21,954 bases of DNA, from positions 1 through 21,954 of IMG/VR virus record IMGVR_UViG_3300032006_000104; one strand, written 5' to 3'. This document shows positions 1-17,004 of this stretch, one piece after another (within the stretch, counting starts at the first letter, position 1; each line of letters begins with the position of its first letter). This DNA is from a virus. Both the position numbers and the translations under genes were made by a program. Under the pieces are notes generated by a model. That model was not told where the DNA came from. It worked only from the letters and a program-made list of their open reading frames with translations, and did no database searches.

Positions 1-1591
1 AACGATTCTCAATGTAAAGTACATCACCTGAGAACTTCTCAAGATCACCACCGGCTACACCATTAGTGTTTGCTGATGCTCCACCCGCTCCTGTAATAGT
101 TTCATTTGTTTGAAACGATCCTGCGATGGAATCATATCCAGTAGTGGTATTTGAACCCATTGTAACATCAATCAACCTCAAGGTTGTATTATTCTTGAAG
201 TCAACAACTTTACCAGTTGCTCCAGATTTTGCTCCAGTTACAAGTTCATCTTCTGCGAATGCTGTACTGTTCCAAGATTGAACTGTAGCTGTAATACATT
301 GATCAATCGTAGATGCTGTACAAACATCTCCATTTGCATATAATGGTTGTGCTAGAAGACCGATTTTTCGAAAATCATTGTTTGTAGTAAAGTTTCCAGA
401 TTCACCGTATTCTAATCTACTGTTAACCATTACAAAGAAACCACCAAGTTCCTCAATTGCGTCATCACCATGTCCGCCACGTGGGCCGATAACTGGTGTA
501 ACGGCTCCCGATGAACCAGCGTTTGTAACGATTGTTGCTACGGCATTACCATAGTTATTTCCACCTGCGACCATTACGATATCACCGATTACACCAGATG
601 CGGTGTTAGTTGAACGAGCATTTGCTCCATGTCCATCACCAGTGACTACGATTTTAGGACCGATAGAATAACCATCTCCATCTGCAGGAACGTTGGCACT
701 TGCTAATGCAGGTGTCCAAGTTACAACTCCTGTACCAGATTGAAAATCGGTAATTGTTCCACCTTTTCCTGTTACTCCACTTCCTGAATCAGAAGTAAAG
801 TAAATATCGTTATTTACAATCGCGTCTGTTGCTAAACCAGAACCTGTAATTTTAGCTGTGGTTGTGGTTTCTGTATGACCAGATTGAACTGTTCCAGTCT
901 CAAATGTGTATGCACTTCCACCATTGGTTACGTGCATAACTTCGATTGCACCATTACCTGAGGTATTTGCTGCAATTTCAACATCATACTGAAAAGATGA
1001 ATCGGTAGTATTCGCAACTGCACCATTTGCTTTCCTTACTCTTTGAGTAGGAATGTAACTAGGTGTTACAAACTTAAGTGCTCTTGCGGCTGAGATCTGA
1101 TACATGAACTTCCATTTATAACTGTCAGCAGTTGAAATAATGGTTGTTCCTGTTCCAGTAGGTTTTGTAGTAGATGTTCCACCAGCGTTGTTGTTGGCGA
1201 GACACTTGTATACGTTATAGTCATCTGTCATCACGTAGTACTGTTGATCAAACAAGGCGTTATTTGCATGAGTATATGCAAAATAGTTTGAACCAGTAGT
1301 CCAATTATAACGTGGTGCGACATGACTGACATCCGTAGATCCAATTTTCTTAGCTGCAATCATGTCTCTCCAGTGATTGTAGACTGTATTGGAAACGGAA
1401 TCAGTAGGTGTGGGCGGTGCTGTATCATCAGCCCACGCGGTTACTTTACCAATAAACAAGTACATATTAGTATTAAGTACACCGTTAGTATCAGTAATCG
1501 CAGCGCCTGAAGTTGCAGAAATTTCATCGAAAGCTTCTACAAACTGTTTAGCGTTGTGAATCCTGAATTTATTGGTTACTATAGCAGGCAT
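1..1591 (-). CDS. 8: Baseplate wedge protein, T4 gp8-like (3' end cut by window edge)
   Basis: Likely structural wedge protein that joins gp7 and gp6 in the T4-type baseplate. I translated all 530 visible codons by hand and found one open frame with no stop, running off the window's left edge. The N-terminus (IVTNKFRIHNAKQF), APPTPTDSV (about residue 53), the WRDM...VAPRYNW segment, YKWKFMYQIS and the terminal SGDVLYIENR match T4 gp8 as I remember it; in T4 the last of these lies about 20 residues from the end, so little should be missing. T4 gp8 is 334 aa, and the extra length is mainly a Gly-rich beta insert at about residues 195-390 with GG-x2-Y and GDGYSIGP motifs. The ATG at 1591 is preceded by GGAGG at 9 bases. 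The gene has its own late promoter and is richer in G+C than its neighbours. It follows gp6 and gp7, as in T4. Confidence 0.9.
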   Translation of the reverse strand, partial: MPAIVTNKFRIHNAKQFVEAFDEISATSGAAITDTNGVLNTNMYLFIGKVTAWADDTAPPTPTDSVSNTVYNHWRDMIAAKKIGSTDVSHVAPRYNWTTGSNYFAYTHANNALFDQQYYVMTDDYNVYKCLANNNAGGTSTTKPTGTGTTIISTADSYKWKFMYQISAARALKFVTPSYIPTQRVRKANGAVANTTDSSFQYDVEIAANTSGNGAIEVMHVTNGGSAYTFETGTVQSGHTETTTTAKITGSGLATDAIVNNDIYFTSDSGSGVTGKGGTITDFQSGTGVVTWTPALASANVPADGDGYSIGPKIVVTGDGHGANARSTNTASGVIGDIVMVAGGNNYGNAVATIVTNAGSSGAVTPVIGPRGGHGDDAIEELGGFFVMVNSRLEYGESGNFTTNNDFRKIGLLAQPLYANGDVCTASTIDQCITATVQSWNSTAFAEDELVTGAKSGATGKVVDFKNNTTLRLIDVTMGSNTTTGYDSIAGSFQTNETITGAGGASANTNGVAGGDLEKFSGDVLYIENR

Positions 1592-1680: not shown

Positions 1681-4600
1681 TTACAACTGGTAGACTGAAT
1701 CATCAGTACCACCTAAATGTTTTCTTGTAACTACTAATTCTGTGTCACTATTAATTGCTGACACAATAAAAGCTTGTGGATCTGTAACAATCATTTTTGA
1801 TCCATCTTCCCAGAGCATATTGATATTTTCCCATTCTGGGGATTCTTGTTCGACTTGTCCTACTTCATGATCTAATCCAACCACAAGGGCTTGATTAGTG
1901 TCATCAGTAAGAATCCAATAAGTTTCTGAAGAAAAATCAGGAGTTGAATATTCTCCTGTTACTCCGGCGTGACTACCATGAGCACTGATTGTTGTATCTT
2001 CAGTAGTTATTAACCATCGAAAGTTTCTTATTTGTATTCCCATTAAATCGGCTGCGAGATCTTCATTTTGTACATGAAAAATACGCAATTCTTCGTGTTC
2101 TATTCTTTCATCAGTTTCTAATAATATACCTCCACCAGTCTCTTCATCTATAATGTTTTCATCTGCAGTTTGAAATTCTTCCCCCACACTAAGTTGAGTT
2201 AAGAATTCAGATCCATCTCCTGTTCCTGTAGTTCCCCCATCTGGAAATGTAATTGTACCCTTTAGTCTTGTTAATATTCTACTATAACGATAAGACGGAA
2301 GAACTGCCCAAGCCTGTTGTGGAGTATAGTCTACTCCATACTCTTCATTAAAAGGTTTAGATGTTTCATGTAATATTAAATCTGTACCCGTTTTCTTGTA
2401 AACATTAGTAGGATGTCCAGCTCCCGTTCCCATACCATTATGTGCAGTACAATAATAATACAATAAATCCGGAACTGAACCTTCTAAATAGAATTCAACA
2501 TAAGCACCGGCTTGACCTTCTGTTCCATTAACTATTTTGTTTACCCCAGCTGTTAATTCTGTTCCACCAGCATGTGAACCATGAGCTGTAGTAGAAAGTC
2601 TAAAAGGATGTCCGGCCATTGTTGAATCTGACACATCAAATCTAAGATGTGTTGTACGTTCCAATCTTAATTGTGGTTGTACAATTCCATCAATAACAAA
2701 TACATTTTGGTCACCAGTAGGATTTGTTACTGTTACTGTGTGTATAGTCCAATCTTCTTGTGCAAGATAATCATAGGCTCTACCATCGACTGTACCTAAA
2801 GTTTGAAGTTCATCTTCTAATAAAATTCCATGTAATTCTTCTCTTTGTAGGTTCAATAAATCTTGATTGACTTCAGGAAAATCTTCTTGAATTAGATAAT
2901 CTTGATCTGTAATACCATGCTCTAATAATATTAAACCCGAATCATCCTCTTGTGTAAATTTATCATCAACATAATATAAATTAGCATCTGACCAATTTGA
3001 AACATAATGTGGTCTAAATGGTTGCATACCAAAAGTTCTTGTAACTTTTGTATCTTGCCAAGTTTCAATATAATCTAATTCATGGTTTGCTGGAGTCCAC
3101 CTTTGCATATCACTTGGTGCTTCTTCTGTGACATATTCTTTAGTAATAACAGGTGGTTTATTTTCTTGAATATCTTGTAGAATTCTTGAATTATTAACAC
3201 TACCCAAATCCTTATGAACATCTTCCATTGCAAGATATACATCATCAATTATATTAGCCTCTATGAATATCTCTGAACCCATTCCAGCATGATTAACACA
3301 ATAGTAATGAAGTTTTTGAGTATCGTTTGATGGTCTAATTTCAATATAAGCTCCAGAAGTTCCAGGATCACCATTTATTACTACTCCATCTGTATATGCT
3401 GTACCTCCACCATGAGTACCATTGTTTGTTTTGGAAAACCTTAAGGGATGCCAAGAATCTGACTCCTCTGTAGGACGGTTCGATGCATCACTCAAATCAA
3501 AACGATATGTTCTTTGGCCTGTCATAGATACTAATGCTCTAGAAACTCCATCGATAAAAAACGCTCCACCTGCGGCAGTTACTGCATAAACTGTATTATA
3601 AGTTACAATTTTCGATGCTGTAGTAGTATTTCCCATTCCACTATGATTAAGACAATAATACCAAATATCAATATTCGTGTCTTCTGGTGGTATAAATGAA
3701 ACATAAGCTCCTGAAGTTCCCGGCTCTCCAACAACTGTTACGCCTGTAGTATATTCTGTACCTCCACCATGAGTACCATTGTTTGTTGTAGAAAATCTAA
3801 TTGGATGCCAATCGCCTGGTGTTTCTGAAGGACGTAATGAAGAATGTTCCATATTAAAACGATATTCTCTACCCCCTGAAAAAGTATAAACTGGTCTATC
3901 TGATCCATCAAAGGCAAAATCACCTAATACATTTGTTAATACAATATCAACCCTCTCAAGTTCTGGAATTTCAGGCTCCATTAGTATGTGCCACCCCATA
4001 GTGTCCACACCATATATGTTTTTCACTGGAGGTATTAATAAATCAGATGCTTTTATATTTGCGTCTTCAGTAAGTAATCTTCCTGATTCATCTTCAAGAG
4101 TAGTGTGTGTAATTCCATCTTCTTGTAGTAAATGCCAATACTGTGTTTCATAAAGATTATATTGTATTGTTTCAACATGATTACCACCAGCTACAGAACT
4201 TTTCTCTATTATAGCCCATGTACCATCTTCATGTTGAAGATAATCTTCATTCTCCATTCTTAAATGATACCCCATTGTATCATAATGTTCTGTTTCGACT
4301 TCTACTAGAGGAGCTTTTACATAATCTTCCTCAGACAACATTCTTGTTTCATCTTCATATATGATATGAGATGTGTCCTCCATTCTTAGATGCCAATGGG
4401 TAGTTTCAACAAGATTAAATTTTGTACAATATAAATTGTTTTGAGTTAAACCATAATCATCTTCTACCTTGATGTAATTATTTCCTGAGGTATTATTTTC
4501 TTCAATTAGATAATGTCCATCTTCTGTGACTATTGCATTATAAATTATTCGTAAATCAAATTCTTTTTCTAGACTATTATCTAATGTTATTGGAACAATA

Positions 4601-7600
4601 TCTAAGGTCACTAACGATTCATCTTCCATCATAAAACGATCTTGACCATCCTCAGAAATTAGATGAGCTCTTGTAGAATTAAACCAAGTCTCCAATATAT
4701 GAGTATCTACAATCGGAATACTTTCATATTGATGATCCGGTCCTTGAGTATCTTCTTCAAGAGAAATATATCTTTGTGGGCCGTTTCCTTGACCGGCAGA
4801 CTCTTCGTGTAAGAGATATCCCCACCCATAAGTACCATTATCATCTTCAAGAAGAATATCACTATTAAAACTTACATCAATGGAAATAGTTCCTGTTTCT
4901 TCTTCTGGAAATTGTAATGTTGGATAGAGATAAGTTCCACCTCTTTCCATTTGAATATCTGTACCATCCTCATTTAAAATATTTCCAGAAAAGGGATTAT
5001 CCCAATTTGTTGATTGTGTTCTGAAAACATCTGCATAAGAAATTACTGAAGATTTCAAATAAGATGTTGGCTCCATCAACAAATCATCACCATCCTCTAA
5101 GAGAATTGTATTACCAGTAGTTTGATCTTCTAAGGTGATATACAAATTTCCATCATACATTGATTGAGATGTTACTGATCCCGTATCTGGCGATGGAGTA
5201 ATAGTATATGTGTTTGTAGTGGGTACAGTAGTAACTGTATATTCATTATTAAATCGTTGATCTGATTCATCTCCAGTCCACTTAATTTTATCACCAGCTT
5301 GTAATCCATGTAATGTTGAAGTAACCACATACATTGTGGAATTAGTTCTTGCTATAGATGAAATCTCTTCAAAATTTTCTAATTGAATATTTACTTCATC
5401 ACCTATTTCTATCCTTGCATCCATTGCATGCCAAGGATGTTTATTAGTATAAATTTCTATTTCATTATTCCAATAAGTATTAGAAAATTGGACATTCATA
5501 GAAGCGGCATTAGAAGATAGAACGAGAGTACGATATTTTTTATCGCCAGCGGAAGTTTCAGTTTCTACATTACGTTCACCTTTATCAAACATTTCAACAG
5601 AAACTTTACTTCGTATAGCTAACTCACCAAACATTACTAATCCGGATGGGTGAACTAATCTTTTTACCGAATTACGATAATCATTTACATCGAAATCTGT
5701 TTTTAAGACATAAGAAAAGTTCTGATAATATTTGTTATCTTGAAGTTTTGGAACACCACTAAGTAATCCTTTAGTACCACTATAATAGCCTGGATATGTT
5801 GCATACGCCCCCAAGTGTGCGGTAAGTTCTGCATTCTTATCTCCCGCAGAAGTAGTAACTGCAGGAACAGTAGAGTAACCTGCACCAAAATCGTAAACCT
5901 CAATGGCTTGAATTGCTCCAATTGCTATTGCAGATACTTCAATTATGGCATTATTACCTCTTGGAGTAATATCTTGATAAACTGCATTTGATGATGCTAA
6001 CCACGCCGAAGCAACGGGTCTAGATCTAAGGTCGCCTGGAGGTGTAGTTGTTCCAGGAGTTTCAGGTAATACGTAAGTATATGTACTATTATTTGAAACA
6101 GTAATAGGATAAACTCCGTTAAAAATTGGATTAGCATTAGAACCTGTAATACTAACTTTATCGCCTGACCTTAAATAATGTCCTTCTTCTGTTACTGTAA
6201 CTGTTTTATTTCCTGTACCACCTGCTGATAATGTAATTTCTCGGTTTGTACCCCATGTCAATGCTCGGTTATAACTCATTGAATATGTGTTACCTGCACC
6301 TACTGTTTTAGAATCTTCAACTGTAATTGATGTGGCATTAGTATATCCAGTTATTGTAGTAGTACTGTCGTCATGATGAGTAAAAGTTCCACGAACACAA
6401 TCATTAGGAAATGTAGTTCCTACTCCTGTAATTGTAGTTCCTGATTGTGCATAAGTTCCTGTAGAATATGCAGAAGCTGCATTACTATATGCGGTAACTC
6501 GTTCTCCACTTGTATCTTCAGAATAGAATCTTGATTGATCTGATTCATTACAAATAAGATCATCATCTTCCATTTGTAACCATGTAACACTATCTTCAAT
6601 TATGAATAGTCCTCCACCACCATCTTGCGATCCTGCTGTATCTGATTCAAGTAAAAGTCTTTCGTGGGAATATCGATCTTGATGAAAGTCTTTTTCTTCT
6701 AATAATATATTTTCTACTGTTGAACCAAAATCTTGAGTGGTTAACATATCCACTCTAAGAGATGTATTACCATTTGCGATTGTTAATGGTCTGGCAGTAG
6801 TAGCAATATGTGCTTTGTCTATAAAATCAAGAACTCTACCTCTTGCAGTATAATCATCATTATAGAGTAATGAATTTTTTGTAATATTATTGGCGAGTGC
6901 CATATAGGTAAGAGTAAAAGTTTCCTTATCAGGATTATCTCCTACACCTTGTCCGAAAAGTTTTTCATTACTTACTCTAATAACAGTATTACTTGTAACT
7001 TCAGTTACTTGATCTGTAACACCATTTGCATATATGAGTGTAAGTATTCCAGAATTAGCTTCCGGCCATGCATCATCACTAGTTAAAGTAACAACATTAC
7101 CATCTTGTGAAATTAATCCTGTAGACCCAAAAAATGAATGAAGATTTAAATTAAGTATGGAATTAGGTGCACCTACAACATCTAAAGCATTTCCTAAAGT
7201 TGGAGTATAATTATTAGCTATAGTAACGGGGGGTTTTGATTCGTATTTTCCACCACCTGAAGTTAAAACAAATGAATCAATTGCTCCAACATTAACTGAA
7301 GTCATATTAAGAGCACCATTACAAACTAACTCTAAGTCAGGACTTGCTCCATGTGCATCAACCATAGTAAAGGTATTAGTTGTTACTGTGGCGGGGGTAT
7401 TTCCAACTTGAAATGTAATACCATTATGCATACTATGAGCATCGGAGCCTGATCCATCTGCAGCCGCACCTAATTTTGTAAACTTAGTATCATATACTAT
7501 GATGTTATCATCATTGACAAAATTTTGTACTGTCAATGCATCTATATCGTTATCACGATAATAAGAACCAACCGAATATAAGAATGCAGTAGTATTGGCA

Positions 7601-9369
7601 CTAATAACTGTACCCCAATAAGTATTACTTGCATATTCAATAGTAACAGTTTGACCTGTTCCAAAGTTATGTGTATCTCTAACTGTTAAAACATTATTTG
7701 CATTAAAACCTGTAATAATAGTTGTATTTGCGTTTGCATAAGTAAGTTTACCACCAACTACATCTATTTTTTCTTCTTCTGAAAGTCCAGCAGAAAGTGT
7801 AACAGTTTTTACAGATTGAGTAATGGTTAGTCCTGAAGTATCTACAGTTACTTCCTTTGCAATTCTATCTCCGGCAAGGATATGTTGTGTAGCATTATAA
7901 TTACCTTGATTATCATAGAGTTTTGCTGAAGCTGATTTAATTGCTGCCGAAAATATTAAAGAAGAGTTACCATATAAATGAGTATTGGCATTATGTCCTA
8001 AGAATGTACTAGAATAATCTCCTGCTGATAATTGTTTTACGGCATAAGCACTAACTAAATCAGTATTTCTTAATATTGCTCCAGTAGAAACAATTTTATT
8101 AATTTGAGCGGCGGCTCCAGAACCACCTGTTCCATCATTAATAAAACCTACTACATCACCTACTGCATAACCATCCCCAGAATCTATAACATCAATTCCT
8201 TCAACAACAGAATCTAAAATTGCTGATACTCTTGCTCGTGCACCCTGTCCACCACCACCGGTAATATGAACTTCATCACCAATAATATAATTTGTTCCAC
8301 CAACATCTACTGTAACACTTTGTAAAATACCCGATACTGTTGCATCTGCATATAATCCATCTGTATCAGTTTCAGAGGTAACGATTTCGTTTTCTTTAAA
8401 GTAAAATAATTCACCATCAACAACACCCTGTACTACATCTGATAATGTTAATTCTGTAACTTGAAGGGCTCCTGCAAAAGATGTAATTTGTTTTTCAACT
8501 ATTGCAGTACATTTAGAAAGACTACCAACAATTTTTCTACCCGTAAATAGATTAATATTATTTGCACTAGAAGTTACAATTTTGATTGATTTATCAAGTG
8601 ACCATTCTCCATCAGACATCTTTAATAAGTCTGTTTTAGGATAATAAAATTCTATATCTTCTTTAGCAAAGAGTGTTCTAAACAACCAACCAAAAGATGC
8701 TTCATTACCTTTTGACCGATAAACTTGTTTCATTCTCTTAAGAAGTTGTCGTCTATCAGCAACAGAAGTTTTAGGAACATTTGTATAAAATTCCTTTTTC
8801 CATGCATCATCAATAAGACCTTCACATGAAGTATCAATATCTTGTGAATCAACTAATTCTCTTATTGCTACCGCTGGTGCTTTTGTTTGATATGCATCTA
8901 TTGCCGCTTTAGGAAATGTACCATCACTAACACCATTTGCTAAATTACCATAGGAACGAGAATCACTACCAGTAACTTTTTCATTGTATGTAAAAACTGC
9001 TTCGTTAGTCTTTTTTACAAAGGCAATAGTATTACCTTTTGTACCAGTAACAACTGCGGTTGCACCACTATTAGCACCTGTAAGAGTTTCCCCTACAGTA
9101 AACATAAGGTTTGCATTACCTACAATATCTCGTTCTGATTCTAATTGAAGACGATCTCCATCTTCATAGGCAAGAAAATTTTCATCTTCATCTTGAAGCT
9201 TTGGTTCATTAAATGTAAATGTTGACCCAAAATAAAGTTGGTAGGATTCCATAAATTCATAGTATTTTTCTATGAATTTTTTGAATTTTGGATGTTCGTT
9301 GGTAATAAACTCTGGTAATTGAGTTTCAATTAAAACTGATACATCTTTTTTATCTTTAACTTCAGACAC
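1681..9369 (-). CDS. 7: Giant gp7-related baseplate wedge protein with cupredoxin-like and acidic repeat modules
   Basis: A 2562-aa protein between gp6 and gp8, the T4 position of gp7 (1032 aa). Residues 17-42 (LPEFITNEHPKFKKFIEKYY) and 185-240 (DDAWKKEFY, YRSKGNEASFGWLFRTLF) resemble the C-terminal region of T4 gp7 as I remember it. The matching VHPSG-x8-I segment comes only near residue 1241, after about 950 residues of Gly/Thr-rich beta modules. These include GG-x-Y repeats (about 350-430), a 'GTTFP...TVEDSKTV' module (about 990) and two 'HGL/HYL-x2-GD-x-(V/I)...FN-x2-Y' modules (about 1070 and 1345). From about 1415 onward come acidic EDG repeats, an 86-residue tandem repeat and three H...C-x2-H-x2-M modules. 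The start is GTG, two bases after the gp6 stop, with a weak RBS. The next Met lies inside the conserved segment, so GTG is preferred. gp7 kinship is inferred; the extra modules may be exposed fibre-like parts. Confidence 0.75.
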   Translation of the reverse strand: MSEVKDKKDVSVLIETQLPEFITNEHPKFKKFIEKYYEFMESYQLYFGSTFTFNEPKLQDEDENFLAYEDGDRLQLESERDIVGNANLMFTVGETLTGANSGATAVVTGTKGNTIAFVKKTNEAVFTYNEKVTGSDSRSYGNLANGVSDGTFPKAAIDAYQTKAPAVAIRELVDSQDIDTSCEGLIDDAWKKEFYTNVPKTSVADRRQLLKRMKQVYRSKGNEASFGWLFRTLFAKEDIEFYYPKTDLLKMSDGEWSLDKSIKIVTSSANNINLFTGRKIVGSLSKCTAIVEKQITSFAGALQVTELTLSDVVQGVVDGELFYFKENEIVTSETDTDGLYADATVSGILQSVTVDVGGTNYIIGDEVHITGGGGQGARARVSAILDSVVEGIDVIDSGDGYAVGDVVGFINDGTGGSGAAAQINKIVSTGAILRNTDLVSAYAVKQLSAGDYSSTFLGHNANTHLYGNSSLIFSAAIKSASAKLYDNQGNYNATQHILAGDRIAKEVTVDTSGLTITQSVKTVTLSAGLSEEEKIDVVGGKLTYANANTTIITGFNANNVLTVRDTHNFGTGQTVTIEYASNTYWGTVISANTTAFLYSVGSYYRDNDIDALTVQNFVNDDNIIVYDTKFTKLGAAADGSGSDAHSMHNGITFQVGNTPATVTTNTFTMVDAHGASPDLELVCNGALNMTSVNVGAIDSFVLTSGGGKYESKPPVTIANNYTPTLGNALDVVGAPNSILNLNLHSFFGSTGLISQDGNVVTLTSDDAWPEANSGILTLIYANGVTDQVTEVTSNTVIRVSNEKLFGQGVGDNPDKETFTLTYMALANNITKNSLLYNDDYTARGRVLDFIDKAHIATTARPLTIANGNTSLRVDMLTTQDFGSTVENILLEEKDFHQDRYSHERLLLESDTAGSQDGGGGLFIIEDSVTWLQMEDDDLICNESDQSRFYSEDTSGERVTAYSNAASAYSTGTYAQSGTTITGVGTTFPNDCVRGTFTHHDDSTTTITGYTNATSITVEDSKTVGAGNTYSMSYNRALTWGTNREITLSAGGTGNKTVTVTEEGHYLRSGDKVSITGSNANPIFNGVYPITVSNNSTYTYVLPETPGTTTPPGDLRSRPVASAWLASSNAVYQDITPRGNNAIIEVSAIAIGAIQAIEVYDFGAGYSTVPAVTTSAGDKNAELTAHLGAYATYPGYYSGTKGLLSGVPKLQDNKYYQNFSYVLKTDFDVNDYRNSVKRLVHPSGLVMFGELAIRSKVSVEMFDKGERNVETETSAGDKKYRTLVLSSNAASMNVQFSNTYWNNEIEIYTNKHPWHAMDARIEIGDEVNIQLENFEEISSIARTNSTMYVVTSTLHGLQAGDKIKWTGDESDQRFNNEYTVTTVPTTNTYTITPSPDTGSVTSQSMYDGNLYITLEDQTTGNTILLEDGDDLLMEPTSYLKSSVISYADVFRTQSTNWDNPFSGNILNEDGTDIQMERGGTYLYPTLQFPEEETGTISIDVSFNSDILLEDDNGTYGWGYLLHEESAGQGNGPQRYISLEEDTQGPDHQYESIPIVDTHILETWFNSTRAHLISEDGQDRFMMEDESLVTLDIVPITLDNSLEKEFDLRIIYNAIVTEDGHYLIEENNTSGNNYIKVEDDYGLTQNNLYCTKFNLVETTHWHLRMEDTSHIIYEDETRMLSEEDYVKAPLVEVETEHYDTMGYHLRMENEDYLQHEDGTWAIIEKSSVAGGNHVETIQYNLYETQYWHLLQEDGITHTTLEDESGRLLTEDANIKASDLLIPPVKNIYGVDTMGWHILMEPEIPELERVDIVLTNVLGDFAFDGSDRPVYTFSGGREYRFNMEHSSLRPSETPGDWHPIRFSTTNNGTHGGGTEYTTGVTVVGEPGTSGAYVSFIPPEDTNIDIWYYCLNHSGMGNTTTASKIVTYNTVYAVTAAGGAFFIDGVSRALVSMTGQRTYRFDLSDASNRPTEESDSWHPLRFSKTNNGTHGGGTAYTDGVVINGDPGTSGAYIEIRPSNDTQKLHYYCVNHAGMGSEIFIEANIIDDVYLAMEDVHKDLGSVNNSRILQDIQENKPPVITKEYVTEEAPSDMQRWTPANHELDYIETWQDTKVTRTFGMQPFRPHYVSNWSDANLYYVDDKFTQEDDSGLILLEHGITDQDYLIQEDFPEVNQDLLNLQREELHGILLEDELQTLGTVDGRAYDYLAQEDWTIHTVTVTNPTGDQNVFVIDGIVQPQLRLERTTHLRFDVSDSTMAGHPFRLSTTAHGSHAGGTELTAGVNKIVNGTEGQAGAYVEFYLEGSVPDLLYYYCTAHNGMGTGAGHPTNVYKKTGTDLILHETSKPFNEEYGVDYTPQQAWAVLPSYRYSRILTRLKGTITFPDGGTTGTGDGSEFLTQLSVGEEFQTADENIIDEETGGGILLETDERIEHEELRIFHVQNEDLAADLMGIQIRNFRWLITTEDTTISAHGSHAGVTGEYSTPDFSSETYWILTDDTNQALVVGLDHEVGQVEQESPEWENINMLWEDGSKMIVTDPQAFIVSAINSDTELVVTRKHLGGTDDSVYQL
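2415..2750 (-). repeat. Cupredoxin-like module, copy 3 (gp7-like residues about 2207-2318)
   Basis: Beta-rich module ending in YYYCTAHNGMG. Candidate ligands by position are His2254 (in GHPFRLS), Cys2307, His2310 and Met2313, giving H-x52-C-x2-H-x2-M. A further His in GSHAGGT (2266) is shared by all copies. Type 1 copper proteins use His-Cys-His-Met in this order, although plastocyanin has x4 rather than x2 before Met. This copy is the most diverged and is separated from copies 1-2 by about 170 residues of acidic repeats. Confidence 0.6.
3260..3605 (-). repeat. Cupredoxin-like module, copy 2 (gp7-like residues about 1922-2036)
   Basis: Tandem neighbour of copy 1 with the same plan: FFIDG near its start, an aromatic Y-R-F-D strand, SWHPLRFS, GTHGGGT, GTSGAYIE and YYCVNHAGMG. 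Candidate metal ligands are His1974, Cys2024, His2027 and Met2030, with His1986 also conserved. The period relative to copy 1 is about 119 residues. Copper binding is inferred from the motif only. Confidence 0.65.
3399..3430 (-). repeat. 32-base exact repeat, copy in module 2
   Basis: This 32-base stretch is identical to 3756-3787, 357 bases away (119 codons), and encodes the NNGTHGGGT segment of the cupredoxin-like module. Identity at the DNA level, including synonymous positions, suggests a recent duplication or gene conversion between modules 1 and 2. Confidence 0.85.
3610..3955 (-). repeat. Cupredoxin-like module, copy 1 (gp7-like residues about 1806-1920)
   Basis: Module with FAFDG near its start, YRFNM, DWHPIRFS, GTHGGGT, GTSGAYVS and WYYCLNHSGMG. 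Candidate ligands are His1855, Cys1906, His1909 and Met1912 (H-x50-C-x2-H-x2-M), plus the shared His1867. It directly abuts copy 2. Confidence 0.65.
3756..3787 (-). repeat. 32-base exact repeat, copy in module 1
   Basis: Partner of 3399-3430, in the same reading frame and at the same place in the module. Flanking bases on both sides diverge, so the identity is local. Confidence 0.85.
3970..4419 (-). repeat. Tandem 86-residue repeat, two copies, in gp7-like protein
   Basis: Copy A starts at residue 1651 (FNLVETTHWHLRMED) and copy B at residue 1737 (YNLYETQYWHLLQED). Both continue with an EDE-x-(R/G)-x-L-x-E segment, a K-A pair, and D-T-M-G-(Y/W)-H-(L/I)-x-M-E. The spacing of the first aligned residues is exactly 86. 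Copy B lacks the final part of copy A (YLQHEDGTWAIIE...). The function is unknown; alternating hydrophobic and acidic residues suggest stacked beta strands. Confidence 0.7.
5050..5160 (-). repeat. Acidic EDG motif block in gp7-like protein, shared with the 892-aa protein
   Basis: Residues about 1404-1440 read LYITLEDQ-x3-N-x-ILLEDGDDLLMEP. The 892-aa protein has LYLQLEDQ-x3-NNILLEDGNELLMEA at residues 59-84. Shorter versions, hydrophobic pair plus ED(G/E), recur through the gp7-like protein from about residue 60 to the C-terminus and are densest between 1415 and 1800. This looks like a mobile short module shared by two virion genes. Confidence 0.7.
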
Positions 9370-9371
9370 GA

Positions 9372-11249
9372 TTAATATCCAGTTGCTAGAGTTGTTCCAT
9401 CAGTAGTTGAAATAGTTCCTTCAACATACGTACCTGTTCCTGCATCATCTAACATTGTAATACTAATATCTCCTGATTCTATTAATATAATTTGTTCTCT
9501 AAGAGGATTAACATCTGATGAGGCCGGAGTAATATAAACTTCTAATGGTGTAGTATTTCCTGTAGTCTCTGAACCAATAATAAGAGGTTTAAAACTTGTA
9601 AGTGATATTTTTCCAGTAAGATAATTTACTGTACCTACATTATTATTAACAATAATTCTATCTTCTCCTGAAGTTCTATATACTTCAACTACTCCATTGT
9701 TATCTTGTAATCTACAACCTGACCATTGAGTATTTGCAGAATCTGTATACGAAAATGTATTACTAGTTACTGCACCCCAAAAAGTATTAGAAGGGTGATA
9801 GATTTGATTAGAAAATGGCATATCATAGGCTTCAGCTGATCCTAACAATGGATAAAGAAGTCTTTTTAATTGAATAGATGTTTGATTACTTTTAACAGAA
9901 ATTTCAGATTCATCTATTTCTTTAATTAATTTTGAATATCTAAATGATTTATCAAAAGTTTTTAAATTAGTATCTCCAAAAGCTGTAATCTGATTAGTTA
10001 CTGTTGACTTAAGTTGAGAAGCACTATTTGTAGTTGCACCAGAATCATATTTAACTGTACTACTAACTTTTAAATACATATAATCTGGATCTACAACTTC
10101 CGGAGTAATTCCTACAATATTTCTTTTCTTTAATATTTCATCTTCTACAAAAGTTTTATTAGATTGAGAAAGAACTGAACCTGATGCCGGTTTAATTGCT
10201 ACATAAACTTTTCCATAAACTGGGGGATCTGCATCTTCTCCACCCCAAGCAACAACCGCTTGTGCATCACCATAATCTCTTTTAACTAGAGCCACATAAT
10301 CATGAATTGTAACACATCTATTTTGAGATTCATAGTTTTTAGGAGCATTAAATTTTATTTCATCTATATCTGCGGCAACGGCTCCACCAGCTGAAATAGA
10401 TGTAGTCTCAATTTTTACATTAGAATATCCTCCAACATCAGACACTACTGAAAAGGCTTTTGCACCATTGGTTGCATCAGTTTCACATACTAAACTTGAT
10501 AGTATAACAATATTCCCATTTGATAATTGTTTACCTAATGTTCCATCACCAAATTGAATTACAAACTTACCATCTTCAGCTTCATCTATAAAATAAATTT
10601 TTGAACTAGAATTTACAGTAGTTATATCTGTTGCTTCTGAATATACTGCCGAATCAGTATCAGTAGAACTATTTTGAATTGTAACCTCTAAAGTACTAAT
10701 ATCTGTATTCTCATTAGGAAGAATAAATTTTTGATCTGGATCTCCTGTATTAGCAGTATATCTAAATGTCGTAGGCATTCCTTGTGTAAGATCTACACTA
10801 GCAACTGTATAAACTCCATTTGCATTAATATTTACAGAATAAGAATTAGAAGTACACCAAATATATGTTACGCCCTCTACTTCTCCTTGAAACTGGGTAT
10901 TCTTAGGGATGTTTATACCGGCGGGCTGATCTGTTGGTGTAATAGTAAGTGTTACTTGTGCTTTTGATCCTTGTGCAGAACGTGGTCTATAACCTAGATG
11001 TTTTGCTCTTGCTACAACAGAATTTCTAAGAGAGGCCGAATCTAAAAACATTTCATTAGCAATCATATTTGCATAATATGAATTATAATGAGTATTGTAA
11101 GATAAAATATCAAGAAGAACATCAAAGGAAGATCCCGTAAAATCATATCCCACAAAATCAGATTGACTTGTTAAGAATCCTTGAAGATTCTCTTTAATCT
11201 TAGTAAAGTCTAATTCTGATATATTAAGTTTACCATCTGAACTTGCCAT
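9372..11249 (-). CDS. 6: Baseplate wedge protein gp6
   Basis: Core wedge protein; in T4, gp6 dimers form the continuous ring that holds the wedges together. At 625 aa it is close to T4 gp6 (660 aa). The N-terminal block at about residues 32-95 is typical of the family (YDFTGSSFDVLLDILSYNTH, NEMFLDSAS, LGYRPRSA). Residues 305-355 hold the baseplate-J-like part (YESQNR, HDYVALV, AWGGED, PPVYGKVYVAI). The ATG at 11249 lies 7 bases after the gp25 stop, and GGAGAGGA in the end of gp25 provides the RBS. The stop is two bases before the GTG of the gp7-like gene, so coupled translation is likely. Confidence 0.93.
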   Translation of the reverse strand: MASSDGKLNISELDFTKIKENLQGFLTSQSDFVGYDFTGSSFDVLLDILSYNTHYNSYYANMIANEMFLDSASLRNSVVARAKHLGYRPRSAQGSKAQVTLTITPTDQPAGINIPKNTQFQGEVEGVTYIWCTSNSYSVNINANGVYTVASVDLTQGMPTTFRYTANTGDPDQKFILPNENTDISTLEVTIQNSSTDTDSAVYSEATDITTVNSSSKIYFIDEAEDGKFVIQFGDGTLGKQLSNGNIVILSSLVCETDATNGAKAFSVVSDVGGYSNVKIETTSISAGGAVAADIDEIKFNAPKNYESQNRCVTIHDYVALVKRDYGDAQAVVAWGGEDADPPVYGKVYVAIKPASGSVLSQSNKTFVEDEILKKRNIVGITPEVVDPDYMYLKVSSTVKYDSGATTNSASQLKSTVTNQITAFGDTNLKTFDKSFRYSKLIKEIDESEISVKSNQTSIQLKRLLYPLLGSAEAYDMPFSNQIYHPSNTFWGAVTSNTFSYTDSANTQWSGCRLQDNNGVVEVYRTSGEDRIIVNNNVGTVNYLTGKISLTSFKPLIIGSETTGNTTPLEVYITPASSDVNPLREQIILIESGDISITMLDDAGTGTYVEGTISTTDGTTLATGY

Positions 11250-11674: not shown

Positions 11675-13666
11675 TTAGTTAAGTAGTCCTAGCACTAATG
11701 CTAACAAATCTATTGGATTTTTACTACCCCCTCCTGCAATGAGTTTATCTCCTTCTGTACCAATAAATAATATTCCTGATGCGTAACCCATATCTGGAAT
11801 ACCTGTGGCATTTTTGATTTCCTTCTTTAAACCCTCATTTCCTCCGTTTTGATTTGGAATATAAAGTGCGAATACTCCAGATGATGGTAATGTTATTCTA
11901 AAAAATTCCAAAAATTTATCAATAAGTTTAATTAAATGTTCTAGAAAATCTTCAATCTGTGCCAACATATTAATCATCTCTTGAATAAATCCGGTAGAAT
12001 CTATTATCATTCCTTTTATTTGTTTTACAAAGTTTTCTAACTCTTGAAAAAATTCTCCCCAACCAGGAACAATATCTTTAATTTGTATTCCATCAAAATC
12101 GGGAGGAGTAGAATCTGGAAGTACTTGTAATGTTTCAACTAAAACTTTTCCTATCTTTGGATATACTCTTAAATTTTTAGGTAAGGTGACAGTCTCTGCT
12201 CCCACCATAACATAATTATCATAATAATCAATTCCAGTTTCGGCGGTTGTTGCTTCTGAGTTTCCAAACTTTCCTCTTTTTTCCATCTCTAAAACTGTAT
12301 CGCCTGGAGTCCACGGGTTATATCCATCAACCCCCCTCATAGGCTTCACCATTATTTCCATATCCACCCATCGTTCATCTGGATTTAAATCTATTTCTTC
12401 AAGTACCTCAATTATATCACCTTCTTTATCTTTAAGTGGTTCTCCAAGATCATCAATTACTTTTATTACTTTCTGCCCCTTCATAGATGTGGCGGTTGTA
12501 GCAGAAGAATTGACAGATCTTACTTCTCCAAGACTACCATATCGTTTTCCACTTATAATATCACCAGCTACAAATTTTTCATACTTAGTATCAACTTGAG
12601 TTAAACTAACTTTTACATCATTTGGGGTAATAATTTCTTTTAATTTGTTTAGTAAATTTTGACCCTGATCGGCTGAAAATTCGGGAATATCAGAAAACAT
12701 TTTCGAAAATTCATTAAAGACTGATGCAAATTTATCAAAGTTATCTGCGGCAATTATAATTGCGATTGCTCCAGATCCACCATCAAATTCTGTATTTCCT
12801 AAAATATTAGGTTTACCTATTGAAACTTTAGTATTAATAGGTTTTCTTGATGCTTCATAATCTAGAGGCCAACGTGATTGTTCTGCGGTTCTTTTTCCCA
12901 TATCAAATAATTCTAATCCAAAATCTTCAGCGGGGTCCCATCCTCTAAATGGATTACCATCAATATCATATACTACTGAAGCTGCAGAATCATCCATTCC
13001 TTTTGATATATCATCCTTTTTTGGTAAATCAGAATCTTTAGCATTTTTTCTATATCTGGGAACATCACCCTCATCATCAAACGCCTTCACAAATTCATTA
13101 ATTACATTTTTTACACTAAATTGAGGAAATTTACTTTGACCCTCAAGTGGATCAGGTAAGGGATCAAACCAATTATAACCACCCGCAATTAATTTTCTTG
13201 GTGTAACTAATTTTGGTCTAGCCTTTTTTTGATCTAAATCTATCATTTCAGGTTTGGTTGTAGTATCTTCCCAATTACCAGAATCGTTCTTTATTTGCCA
13301 ATAACGTTTACCGGCTTCATTTCTTAACTGTTCAAATCCATAATCAAAGGGATGTGTTCCTGTTACATTTCCTTTAAAATATGGATCAACATATAAGTAC
13401 CAATATCCGGCCTCTTTTAAATCATGGATTTGTTTTAATACTTCATCTGCTAATTTATCTAATGCAACTAAAATAGGATTAATATTTTGTAATGCCGCTA
13501 AGAGTTTAACAACTTCCATTCCATTTCTAGCAAGTTCAAGACTAGACTTTACTATTTCAGCAAGATTTGTAGCTGCAGATGCTAAAGCAGAAATATCTCC
13601 CGCCTTTGCAATTTGATGGGGTTTCCATTCGGCCTTCGCCGTTAATAATGCTTCAAATTCAGCCAT
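11675..13666 (-). CDS. Virion protein of unknown function, 663 aa, helical segments at both ends
   Basis: I do not recognise a family with confidence. Residues 25-88 are mostly helical and hydrophobic (ALASAATNLAEIV, VVKLLAALQNI, ILVALDKLADEVLKQIHDL), followed by an aromatic patch (GYWYLYVDPYF). The middle is mixed and rich in charge and Pro. Residues 532-595 form a long amphipathic helical stretch (FFQELENFVKQIKGM, INMLAQIEDFLEHLIKLIDK), followed by SGVFALYIPNQNGGN, YASGILFIG and a hydrophobic C-terminus (LLALVLGLLN). No signal peptide is seen. The start overlaps the 61-aa gene by 8 bases, with an AAGGA site 8 bases upstream of the ATG. Its place between gp5 and gp25 suggests a hub, spike or wedge component, and the end helices could be oligomerisation or membrane-contact parts. 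Confidence 0.75.
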   Translation of the reverse strand: MAEFEALLTAKAEWKPHQIAKAGDISALASAATNLAEIVKSSLELARNGMEVVKLLAALQNINPILVALDKLADEVLKQIHDLKEAGYWYLYVDPYFKGNVTGTHPFDYGFEQLRNEAGKRYWQIKNDSGNWEDTTTKPEMIDLDQKKARPKLVTPRKLIAGGYNWFDPLPDPLEGQSKFPQFSVKNVINEFVKAFDDEGDVPRYRKNAKDSDLPKKDDISKGMDDSAASVVYDIDGNPFRGWDPAEDFGLELFDMGKRTAEQSRWPLDYEASRKPINTKVSIGKPNILGNTEFDGGSGAIAIIIAADNFDKFASVFNEFSKMFSDIPEFSADQGQNLLNKLKEIITPNDVKVSLTQVDTKYEKFVAGDIISGKRYGSLGEVRSVNSSATTATSMKGQKVIKVIDDLGEPLKDKEGDIIEVLEEIDLNPDERWVDMEIMVKPMRGVDGYNPWTPGDTVLEMEKRGKFGNSEATTAETGIDYYDNYVMVGAETVTLPKNLRVYPKIGKVLVETLQVLPDSTPPDFDGIQIKDIVPGWGEFFQELENFVKQIKGMIIDSTGFIQEMINMLAQIEDFLEHLIKLIDKFLEFFRITLPSSGVFALYIPNQNGGNEGLKKEIKNATGIPDMGYASGILFIGTEGDKLIAGGGSKNPIDLLALVLGLLN

Positions 13667-13844
13667 TTTGTTTTTCCTTTTCTTCTCTCTTAGCTCTTGC
13701 CCTTAAAACATTTTCCCAACCAGACTTTTTTAGATTAAGAACTTCTGAATACATTTCAGCAAGTTTTTTAGTATTCTCTAATAACTTCTTAATGTCATCT
13801 CTTCTTAATTCTGCTTCTTTCCATTTATGTTCTTGTTCTGCCAT
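13659..13844 (-). CDS. Small highly charged helical protein, 61 aa
   Basis: Unknown small protein, rich in Lys, Glu and Arg, with heptad-like hydrophobics (IKKLLENTKKLAEMYSEVL) that suggest one long helix or coiled coil. It is likely a real gene. Its ATG overlaps the stop of the 892-aa gene in a TGATG junction, AGGAG lies 8 bases upstream, and its own stop overlaps the start of the 663-aa gene by 8 bases. It may be a small structural or assembly partner of either neighbour; the sequence does not say which. Confidence 0.75.
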   Translation of the reverse strand: MAEQEHKWKEAELRRDDIKKLLENTKKLAEMYSEVLNLKKSGWENVLRARAKREEKEKQNG

Positions 13845-16522
13845 CAGCTATACTCCTTCGCTCTACCATTATAAATTTCATATTTGTTTCTAGCCTTTTT
13901 AACCAGATCTACCAAATCAGTTAAACCTTGAATATCTTGTATTAATTGTACTCCCAATTTAAGTGTCTTACCTAATAGATAATTACAACTGTCATAAATT
14001 GCTCTACCATAAGGAACAACTCCACCAGTAGTATTTGCTGCTGGTACTGCTGACACATAAACAGCGGGGTATTGCTTATAAGATGTTGATGGTGTTCCTG
14101 AACGTGTAGGTACACCAATACGTGTATCAATTTCTGCGGCACGTTTTGAACAGTTAGTACCAAATGTAGATATTTCAGTATGAAAAGCGGCCCATTCAGT
14201 ATTTGCCATAAATACAGTTACACCAAGATTACTCCCACCATTATTAGTCCCTGTTCTGGTATTATTACTGTGATTCCAAGAAGTACGAAAAGTTTCTGTT
14301 GCAGCAGTCAATGTTGCCAAATCCCCTAAAGGTTCTGCTTGAATATAAGTATCAAAAGCAACATCACTTATACCACTTCCACCTGCTTGTGCAGTGTTTA
14401 TATCAATAATTGGATCACGAAAAGATGCTAAAGATTGTAAATCATTTATTGTATCTTTTACAAACTGAACATCAGCATTCATTGAATTATCTCCAGAACC
14501 ACCAGCTTCATATAAGTGTTTCTGTATGAAATTATATCTACATGGAAATACAGTAGTATCTGTACCTAAAGTTGCTGTCCAATTTGTACCTGAAGTAATA
14601 GTAACAGACTCATAATGTAATCTGTTTATATAAATGTAATTGTTTGCACCAAGTGTATAATAATTTCCTATAGTTGCATTGACACTAGGTGCTCCGGCTG
14701 ATCCACTTAAAGAAGGATGTGTGGTAGTTTCATCTACTGGTACTGTTGATGTAGCACCCACACCAACTGAAACACCATCACATGTAACTGATGTTCCTTG
14801 TATTCTACTTATAGCACCACTTAATCCAGTTTTAGTCATAGTATGAGGAGGCTCTCCAGTATTAGGCATAGTATGATTAGTACCTATTGCACCACTAGTT
14901 CCACTTGTATATGAGATATTAGTACAAGGTACTTCATAATAGAATTTTTCAGCTTGGTCAATATAATACCTGTTCTCTGGCATAGTACCTGCACTATTTG
15001 CTCTTTCATAATCATGCCTAATAAATCTTCCACTAGGAATATCATCTTCTCCTAACCCAGTAGGTTGTGTTCCTACAATTACACCATTGTCTACTTCATA
15101 AGCTTTAACTGTTCCTCCCATTGCTGGGAAAAAAGGATTTCGTTCCTTATAAGGATATGTAGTTCCTGAAACTTCTTTTTGTAAAGAAACCCAATCACCT
15201 CTTGCGCCCTTAGTTATATCATTCGTTGCATTTGAACTACCATTGTCAGGATCAAAAAATCCAAGAAGACTTACAAATTGTGAAGTATTAGCATTTAATA
15301 AATCATCCGGTCCCGCATCTGATCCACTATAATCTCCCGCATCATCACCTACTGGTTTCCAATCTGGATTTTTAACTAAACCTTCTCCTACCACTTCTAC
15401 TTGACAGAATATATCATCTTTTGCATATCCAAATGGAACACTATTTACTGTGATGGTAACTATACCATCTGATGTTGCTATTCCTGAATTACTAAGTCTA
15501 ATTTTACTACCCGCAGTTTGTACCGCTGCTATTGATACATTGTCATCTGGAATACCTGTTCCACTAATAACATCTCCATATTTAATTTTAGAAAGATCTG
15601 TATCTGATACGTTTGTTATCTCTAAACTACCCGTTGTAGTTGTACCCGTGATAGTGAATGTGTTTACATAGTCCGCGTGTCTTTTCAAATAAAACTTTTG
15701 ACCAAAAGAAGGACCTACAGGAGTATATGAAGTATTAGTACCCCCCACTAAATGATCTAATAATGACATAGTAACTAATTCATTATATGCTCCTGAACTT
15801 TGTGTCGATACACCCGCGATATTTGCCTTTGCATAATTCTCATTCCATGTTCCCACTTCTGTTACTGTAGCTTGACCCCAAGCAACGGCATTACCAAAAG
15901 GGGTATCATCATTTGGTGAAGAATATGGAGTCATATCATCATTAATATCTACTAACTCTCCATCTATTCTTGATCTAACTACATAATAATCTTTAACATA
16001 AGTAGTGAAAGTATTACTACCTTGTGTTTGAGTTGTACCTTCTAAACTAGTTAAATTAATACTATAAGTTTCTCCAATATCTGTGGCTTTAATTCCAAAA
16101 TAAGATGTATTCGGTTCACTAAGACCTAAAGCACCATTTACTGTTTCATAAGAAGGTAAATCAAATTTTCTAAAAGTAGTTCGTATGTCTCTTGCACCCC
16201 AACATACCAATCTTTGTTCTGCTAGATTTTCACATACTTGATGAAGAGAATAACTAGCATCCAAAATAGTTGCTTCCATTAATAATTCATTACCATCTTC
16301 TAAAAGAATATTATTACCTGCACCCTGATCTTCTAATTGAAGATAAAGAGTATAAGTAGAAGCTGTAAACTTTTCACATAGTGCATTTAATCTACTCTCA
16401 GAAAATTCTCTTATTAATGCAACAGAATTGAGAATCCCATTTCTCGCAGACAAATGCGTTGCAGGAGAATCAATTATCTCCTTTTTCACTTCAACTATTT
16501 TTTTATCAATTGCTCCTGCCAT
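13844..16522 (-). CDS. Large virion protein of unknown function, 892 aa, with acidic repeat and tail-fibre-type beta module
   Basis: I cannot assign this to a T4 gene. Residues 1-58 look helical. Residues 59-84 carry an LEDQ...ILLEDGNELLMEA motif nearly identical to one in the gp7-like protein. Residues 288-358 form a Thr/Ser-rich beta module (TTTTGSLEITNVS, GDVISGTGIPDDN, IRLSNSG, TITVN) of a kind I know from phage tail fibres. Residues 565-690 are Gly/Thr-rich and likely beta. The last 45 residues (LLGKTLKLGVQLIQDIQGL) look helical again. The ATG at 16522 follows AGGA at 5 bases and lies 7 bases after the previous stop. The context makes it a baseplate or tail-tip structural protein; receptor contact is possible but unproven. 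Confidence 0.75.
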   Translation of the reverse strand: MAGAIDKKIVEVKKEIIDSPATHLSARNGILNSVALIREFSESRLNALCEKFTASTYTLYLQLEDQGAGNNILLEDGNELLMEATILDASYSLHQVCENLAEQRLVCWGARDIRTTFRKFDLPSYETVNGALGLSEPNTSYFGIKATDIGETYSINLTSLEGTTQTQGSNTFTTYVKDYYVVRSRIDGELVDINDDMTPYSSPNDDTPFGNAVAWGQATVTEVGTWNENYAKANIAGVSTQSSGAYNELVTMSLLDHLVGGTNTSYTPVGPSFGQKFYLKRHADYVNTFTITGTTTTGSLEITNVSDTDLSKIKYGDVISGTGIPDDNVSIAAVQTAGSKIRLSNSGIATSDGIVTITVNSVPFGYAKDDIFCQVEVVGEGLVKNPDWKPVGDDAGDYSGSDAGPDDLLNANTSQFVSLLGFFDPDNGSSNATNDITKGARGDWVSLQKEVSGTTYPYKERNPFFPAMGGTVKAYEVDNGVIVGTQPTGLGEDDIPSGRFIRHDYERANSAGTMPENRYYIDQAEKFYYEVPCTNISYTSGTSGAIGTNHTMPNTGEPPHTMTKTGLSGAISRIQGTSVTCDGVSVGVGATSTVPVDETTTHPSLSGSAGAPSVNATIGNYYTLGANNYIYINRLHYESVTITSGTNWTATLGTDTTVFPCRYNFIQKHLYEAGGSGDNSMNADVQFVKDTINDLQSLASFRDPIIDINTAQAGGSGISDVAFDTYIQAEPLGDLATLTAATETFRTSWNHSNNTRTGTNNGGSNLGVTVFMANTEWAAFHTEISTFGTNCSKRAAEIDTRIGVPTRSGTPSTSYKQYPAVYVSAVPAANTTGGVVPYGRAIYDSCNYLLGKTLKLGVQLIQDIQGLTDLVDLVKKARNKYEIYNGRAKEYS
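16270..16345 (-). repeat. Acidic EDG motif block in the 892-aa protein
   Basis: Partner of the block at 5050-5160. The two encoded segments match at most positions (LEDQ, ILLEDG, LLME), while the DNA has diverged, so the sharing is old or under protein-level selection. Confidence 0.7.
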
Positions 16523-16529
16523 TGTATTC

Positions 16530-17003
16530 CTATGATAAAGGTCCTGAAAATGGAACAGGTGGAGCGCCTGGAATTAATCCACTCACTACCCATGTTTTTG
16601 TCCATGTATCTAAAATGTTTGCCAACTCCTTCGAAAAACTTACACCTGAAGGTTGATGTCCTGAATATAATTGTATTAACTCCGGCGTATGTGAAGGTGA
16701 TACCGCCGGTGGCCCTATCTGATTTGCAGATAAAAATGTCAATGCCATAGTTGATAATGCCGATGCTATTTGTGTTCCTACTGCTGCACCAGATGGTAAT
16801 TGTTGAGCATAAACTCCACCTATTGTCATTCCTGTTGGAGCATCTACTACATTTGATGCTGGAAATCCACCCGCATTCTGTGCCATCATTAAATAATTCT
16901 TAAATGCTTTTGCTATATCTTTTCCTGGCTTCATTGGATCAGGACTATGACCCCCATACGTTGCTATCAATTCACCCTGTAATGTTGCTTTAACTAATGC
17001 CAT
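16530..17003 (-). CDS. Unknown small virion protein directly after gp5, 157 aa
   Basis: I recognise no family. The protein is rich in Ala, Gly, Pro and small residues, with a helical N-terminal half (KDIAKAFKNYLMMAQNAGG), a central hydrophobic stretch (ASALSTMALTFLSANQIGPP), a Trp-containing segment (ILDTWTKTWVVSG) and a Pro-rich end (IPGAPPVPFSGP). I chose the ATG at 17003 over an in-frame GTG at 17021. GGGAG lies 11 bases before this ATG and would fall inside the coding region if the GTG were used. The ATG also lies one base after the gp5 stop (TAA-T-ATG). Close coupling to gp5 suggests a spike- or hub-associated part. Confidence 0.75.
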   Translation of the reverse strand: MALVKATLQGELIATYGGHSPDPMKPGKDIAKAFKNYLMMAQNAGGFPASNVVDAPTGMTIGGVYAQQLPSGAAVGTQIASALSTMALTFLSANQIGPPAVSPSHTPELIQLYSGHQPSGVSFSKELANILDTWTKTWVVSGLIPGAPPVPFSGPLS

Positions 17004-17004
17004 A

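Follow-up and report, generated by a model that had tools for sequence, protein, structure and literature searches.

Cupredoxin-like modules with candidate type 1 copper sites in a phage baseplate wedge protein and their relatives on marine phage tails and bacterial lipoproteins

Can a phage baseplate protein carry copper centers? This question is raised by a 21,954-base virus fragment (IMG/VR record IMGVR_UViG_3300032006_000104; "the window" denotes this whole stretch of DNA), in which every recognised gene lies on the minus strand and a T4-like baseplate cluster is found. The gene concerned (1681..9369, minus strand) is a single open frame with a GTG start and encodes a baseplate wedge protein of 2562 amino acids. 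It matched the Pfam model Baseplate_wedge (PF23786) with 32.9 bits, above the cutoff of 27, and PHROG 17744 (baseplate wedge subunit) at 2e-47. Its assignment to the gene position of T4 gp7 is based on the matched wedge profile and on its location between genes for a gp6-like baseplate wedge subunit (9372..11249, minus strand; PHROG 219, 1.9e-172) and a gp8-like one (2..1591, minus strand; PHROG 438, 8.5e-88), the latter being truncated by the window end. The other genes of the cluster include a tail-tube cap, a gp53-like, a gp5-like hub/lysozyme and a gp25-like gene, and three further ones (11675-13666, 13844-16522, and 16530-17021, all minus strand) were without a PHROG match at 1e-3. Between its domains, the 2562-residue protein also contains many short acidic repeats, (L/I)xEDGxxLLxE, at about residues 900-1800 and 2100-2210; a similar stretch, LEDQGAGNNILLEDGNELLME, is present in another protein of the window, encoded at 13844-16522 (minus strand).

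Near the C-terminus of this protein, three modules of about 115 residues each were located in the one open frame, as claimed by the original prediction, each reading H-P-x-R followed by C-x2-H-x2-M. According to the family alignment, module 1 comprises residues 1807-1925 (3595..3951), module 2 residues 1925-2042 (3244..3597), and module 3 residues 2209-2324 (2398..2745), all, like the sites below, on the minus strand. The initially proposed span, 2415-3955, covers all three modules, but positions 2746-3243, between modules 2 and 3, are not module sequence. Candidate ligands of module 1 are His1855 of the W-HP-I-R motif (3805..3807; family column 42) and the loop Cys1906-x2-His1909-x2-Met1912 (3634..3654; columns 93, 96, and 99). 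Residue mapping places the corresponding residues of module 2 at His1974 (3448..3450) and Cys2024-x2-His2027-x2-Met2030 (3280..3300), and those of module 3 are His2254 (2608..2610) and Cys2307-x2-His2310-x2-Met2313 (2431..2451). Each module contains all the predicted motifs: (W/G)HP-x-R (WHPIR, WHPLR, and GHPFR in modules 1, 2, and 3, respectively), G(T/S)H(G/A)GGT (GTHGGGT, GTHGGGT, and GSHAGGT), and YYC-x2-H-x2-MG (YYCLNHSGMG, YYCVNHAGMG, and YYCTAHNGMG). A DNA pattern for the last of these matched three times in the window and not at all when reversed, and Cys1906, Cys2024, and Cys2307 are the sole cysteines from residue 1649 to the C-terminus. Since their per-domain E-values as family members are at most 1e-38, the presence of the modules is not due to chance. 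Taken as a metal site, the His of HP-x-R together with the Cys, His, and Met that share one loop would form a type 1 copper site. The Met spacing had been regarded as a reason to doubt such a site; however, C-x2-H-x2-M is the spacing of amicyanin, so that this objection falls.

When viral contigs were scanned with module 1, 216 relatives were obtained, the first 58 unique domains of which align end to end. Together with divergent relatives from four further scans, 387 loci with 681 modules, 546 of them unique, were collected and represented by 150 sequences at 70% identity. None of the Pfam and NCBIfam models reached its cutoff on the three modules. Single-sequence searches of the modules against Pfam, NCBIfam, and PDB gave nothing useful, and only a deep and diverse alignment produced matches. 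The Pfam model Copper-bind (PF00127, cutoff 21.2 bits) was not reached either, with no match for the window modules and 17.5-17.8 bits for the best relatives. A profile of 92 relatives, the rows of which were picked for having the ligands, matched copper nitrite reductase (7.5e-5) and plastocyanins (1.2e-4, profile positions 17-104) among the PDB sequences, with each of the H, C, H, and M residues aligned to its plastocyanin counterpart, whereas no antibody or other Ig-type chain scored better than 0.12. A relative from phage P-HM1 matched plastocyanin 1b3i at 6.7e-4. With hhalign, the 92-relative profile gave a probability of 95.7% against a plastocyanin/pseudoazurin profile, compared to at most 3.1% in 100 column shuffles (match columns only; 0 of 100 near the real value), and the unselected set of 150 representatives gave 94.6%. 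Matches to azurin-type, other blue, and multicopper oxidase profiles were weak or absent. When the four ligand columns were masked, the hhalign probability decreased to 26%, so that much of the similarity is the site itself; homology to known cupredoxins is detectable in sequence and is carried mostly by the site region. The profile search for cupredoxins suggested in the original prediction accordingly gave a positive result, and it is likely that the modules share ancestry with cupredoxins, which rests on the site, the strand pattern, and the predicted fold together. Several modules also showed weak matches (0.007-0.3, below cutoff) to nearly the full length of PF25489, a family bearing the name of a plant protein (At5g54830-like). 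Judged from sequence alone, those of module 3 and its relatives may be a hint that the family has a eukaryotic branch.

Structure prediction was carried out with AlphaFold2. The model of module 1, generated with 24 close relatives (pLDDT 80), retrieved only antibodies (Fabs) from the PDB with Foldseek, and these matches were poor (rmsd ~7 Å, TM <0.4). In the BFVD, the same model found the domain in many phage structural proteins and no annotated cupredoxin. It is superseded by a model of module 3 generated with 92 relatives (pLDDT 90, pTM 0.82), in which His46 (His2254) precedes strand 48-51, Cys99 (Cys2307) ends strand 94-99, and His102 and Met105 (His2310 and Met2313) lie in the following loop. 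As modeled, this is the layout of a cupredoxin, with the His before the middle strand and the Cys ending the penultimate one; the distances between the ligands were not measured. The top PDB matches of this model were nitrite reductase, rusticyanin (probability 0.99), multicopper oxidases, and an amicyanin-loop chimera, at TM values of ~0.5 and with no match at or below 1e-3. Strand order and Foldseek agree on a Greek-key beta-sandwich of the cupredoxin kind, with moderate scores and for a predicted structure only.

The antibody matches raise the possibility of an immunoglobulin-like (V-set) decoration domain without metal, the Y-x-C of which would mimic the F strand of antibodies. Weak antibody matches were likewise obtained from single sequences and a shallow profile, and the P-HM1 record notes PF07686 for a module-bearing protein. 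However, the deeper profile and the deeper model both switch to copper proteins, and the antibody superpositions are as poor as given above. With one Cys per module and no second conserved Cys column, the intersheet disulfide of Ig domains is missing, and the weak Ig match that Pfam reports in the P-HM1 protein lies at residues 1444-1482, away from the modules. Since an Ig fold moreover gives no reason for the joint loss of H, C, H, and M described below, we consider a V-set domain highly improbable.

Further information on the site comes from its conservation among the relatives. For the tally, modules possibly selected through a ligand-bearing search seed were left out, and 111 representatives with all four columns remained. 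HCHM was found in 84 and HCHQ in 4 of these, while the remainder mostly lacked all of H, C, and H; about 17 representative copies stay in the fold family without any ligand residue. The C-x2-H-x2-M spacing was present in 103 of 105 cases, and in 94 of 105 a Pro comes directly after the first His. Among diverse relatives, H42, C93, H96, and M99 are kept or lost jointly, with a mean phi of 0.85, as compared to a mean of 0.10 and a maximum of 0.63 for other pairs of conserved columns. In a tree from which the ligand columns had been omitted, the first His changed independently, with support, five times; these changes were accompanied by changes of the Cys in 4.4 and of the second His in 3.9 cases on average, and never the opposite, whereas the control residues Pro43 (0.5) and Tyr91 (0.8) seldom tracked them. 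This tree-aware co-loss test points in the expected direction, but with just five independent changes it is unable to give p <0.05. The His-Cys-His-Met set and order proposed for the three modules is therefore also the prevailing state among the relatives, and a free variation of these residues in homologues, which would have spoken against the proposal, was not seen, since the ligands behave as a block.

The same does not apply to the second conserved His of the original prediction, that of GTHGGGT (His1866 in module 1, 3772..3774, minus strand; column 54), which had been listed among the conserved features of each module. As a His occupies this column in only 43% of the diverse representatives, the residue belongs to a conserved loop outside the ligand set. 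A role as fifth ligand was ruled out as well, given that several relatives without this His still keep H, C, H, and M.

Met, and Gln in its stead, typically occupy the axial position at type 1 copper, and the exchange of Met for Gln is a known axial variant of stellacyanin-type sites. The subgroup with this exchange (YYWCHxHTxQG) adds a histidine-rich loop, GDHNGNGHY, and possibly has a different metal site. Alternatively, the cupredoxin domain could bind another metal (Zn, or exclusively Cu(I)) that acts purely as a structural cross-brace, the protein being synthesized in the cytoplasm, an environment in which no disulfides are formed. This would likewise agree with the ligand conservation and would suit a domain without a disulfide pair. 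Nevertheless, the roughly 17 copies without any ligands imply that the fold can do without metal, and the Met together with its Gln substitute points to the axial position of type 1 copper, for which reasons we regard a cross-brace as unlikely, without dismissing it. The persistence of the domain where the site is lost rather suggests that the purpose of the metal is dispensable yet selected for, and that it does not lie in the fold.

Three such modules in a baseplate protein had been called unusual, a view that does not hold for marine phages, in the tail proteins of which the domain is widespread. It occurs in gp7 of S-CAM22 and P-SSM7, in structural or hypothetical proteins of S-TIM5 and S-B68, in tail fibers of Pelagibacter and Methylophilales phages, in tail-fiber-like proteins of P-SSM2, and as the C-terminal domain of gp9, the tail-fiber connector, for which a gp9-type search matched 330 records of cyanophages and marine phages. 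The suggestion in the original prediction that marine viral tail proteins have similar YYC..H..MG endings is borne out by this distribution. Complete phage records that were examined contain one to five module copies each, and the isolate phages among the matches listed are all marine. In S-CAM22 gp7 (4885-9012), one intact and one ligand-less module are followed by a YHYH domain (PF14240, 9.1e-16). In the P-HM1 protein (3650-8321), two modules occur alongside a subtilase domain (PF00082, 4.4e-28), and the record notes only the Ig V-set.

The domain is not restricted to phages. Profile searches detected it in 17 of 40 genomes from the family of a SAR86-cluster genome, in 2 of 299 genomes drawn across the phylum of that genome, and in 1 of 99 genomes of the Pelagibacteraceae family, there inside a tail-fiber-like protein. 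The SAR86-type proteins begin with a lipoprotein signal (...ACGGGGG); several of them are lipoproteins of 167-190 residues with a single module, others are larger lipoproteins with the module appended, and in other gammaproteobacterial lipoproteins it is appended to cadherin-like repeats. All bacterial copies found by profile are HCHM. In four SAR86-type lipoproteins of ~570-600 residues, the module follows a region that contains an HExxH-like motif (AHEYFHVYQN in one of them) and that, going by this motif, is possibly a secreted zinc peptidase.

Profile searches, predicted topology, fold search, the all-or-none retention of the ligands, and their integrity in bacterial lipoproteins all agree with the cupredoxin-like reading of the original prediction. 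By the tests run, membership of the modules in the cupredoxin superfamily is supported, yet they remain below the Pfam Copper-bind cutoff, and copper binding is inferred. The explanation we favor, with reasonable but not high confidence and without any metal data, is that the modules are cupredoxin domains in which all ligands of a type 1 (blue) copper site are present, located on exposed tail and baseplate proteins and on marine bacterial lipoproteins. They would represent an unnamed domain family that decorates exposed marine phage proteins at the gp7 position, in gp9, and in tail fibers as well as those lipoproteins. That the site takes up copper, either in the host or once released to seawater, appears quite probable, but is an inference, as no metal was measured.

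What the copper would be used for is less certain. Module partners differ widely and include baseplate proteins, tail fibers, a subtilase, and cadherin repeats. A role in surface binding or as a spacer at the periphery of the tail is inferred from this use as an add-on beside very different partners and from the copies without a whole site. The module, sitting at the surface of baseplate and fibers, would then have a partner on the host, and copper would tune, shape or stabilize the binding face of the module and not shuttle electrons; we put this forward tentatively, with slightly less than even confidence. Type 1 sites are electron-transfer centers in most known proteins, and a redox-active center exchanging electrons with a partner on the host surface or in the periplasm, e.g., at contact or DNA entry, would be in line with this usual role, with the high-potential rusticyanin among the closest folds, and with the single-domain lipoproteins. 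On the other hand, the mosaic architecture, with fusions to adhesion-like and protease domains, the lack of a known partner, and the copies without a site make electron transfer rather improbable. Trace metals are scarce for marine bacteria, which are the hosts here, so that copper-loaded tails might also exploit host uptake of copper or other metals. This would be a copper version of the "Ferrojan horse," a published hypothesis that, like the iron-binding HxH motifs of phage tails, provides an iron precedent (PMC11705849). Since no link to a copper receptor was seen and the idea is pure inference, metal carriage seems a very distant prospect.

In the surface-module reading as in any other with a copper-binding site, many ocean phages may carry copper. 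The widest formulation, that marine phages as a class do so through an unnamed blue-copper family exchanged between bacterial lipoproteins and tails, with one to five modules per genome, for host recognition or for surface redox or copper chemistry, is possible but rather doubtful at present. Provided that copper is bound at the site, the tails of sequenced cyanophages and pelagiphages and of their uncultured relatives bear blue-copper domains in hundreds of cases. The argument for phage-metal interaction in the ocean, which has so far been based on the iron-binding HxH motifs, would then extend to a second metal, at a site that is specific, mutable, and testable in cultured cyanophages. In addition, a name and a likely fold become available for a domain that current annotations call hypothetical, tail fiber or Ig-like, and marine bacteria are shown to keep it on lipoproteins. 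To our knowledge, blue-copper domains on phage tails have not been described previously. The literature search, which did not cover most subscription journals, returned no phage virion protein with a cupredoxin domain, and as far as could be found the family is absent from Pfam. The module is contained in PHROG 693, 30742, 27200, 677, and 708, tail fiber or baseplate families annotated only as structural, with no metal site or domain named.

Among known systems, the plastocyanin/pseudoazurin/amicyanin group (PF00127) shares with the modules the H...C-H-M order, the strand before the first His, and the Cys at a strand end with His and Met in the loop, and the profile alignment with plastocyanin/pseudoazurin is full-length. 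Differences are that plastocyanin has an Asn after the first His where the modules usually have a Pro, and that the modules possess a larger middle region bearing GTHGGGTEYTTGV and are fused into large virion proteins. The best fold matches of the module 3 model are rusticyanin and the cupredoxin domain of copper nitrite reductase (1rcy, 2dv6, and 6tfo; probability 0.97-0.99); these are free periplasmic proteins or enzyme domains and show only 12-16% identity to module 3 at a TM of ~0.5. In the HPxHxHG motif of multicopper oxidases, the first ligand His is likewise followed by Pro, and the T1 domains of these enzymes are also fold matches; however, the modules lack the histidines of the trinuclear site. 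Metal sites in phage tail proteins are represented by the iron-binding HxH motifs of tail fibers (T4 gp37; Alteromonas phage R22Y; PMC11705849). Repeated HxH pairs are not the candidate ligands of the modules, which are a single His, Cys, His, and Met. While the HxH fibers are trimers in which octahedral iron is bound between histidine pairs, the modules described here are predicted to present an H-C-H-M ligand set on a beta-sandwich.
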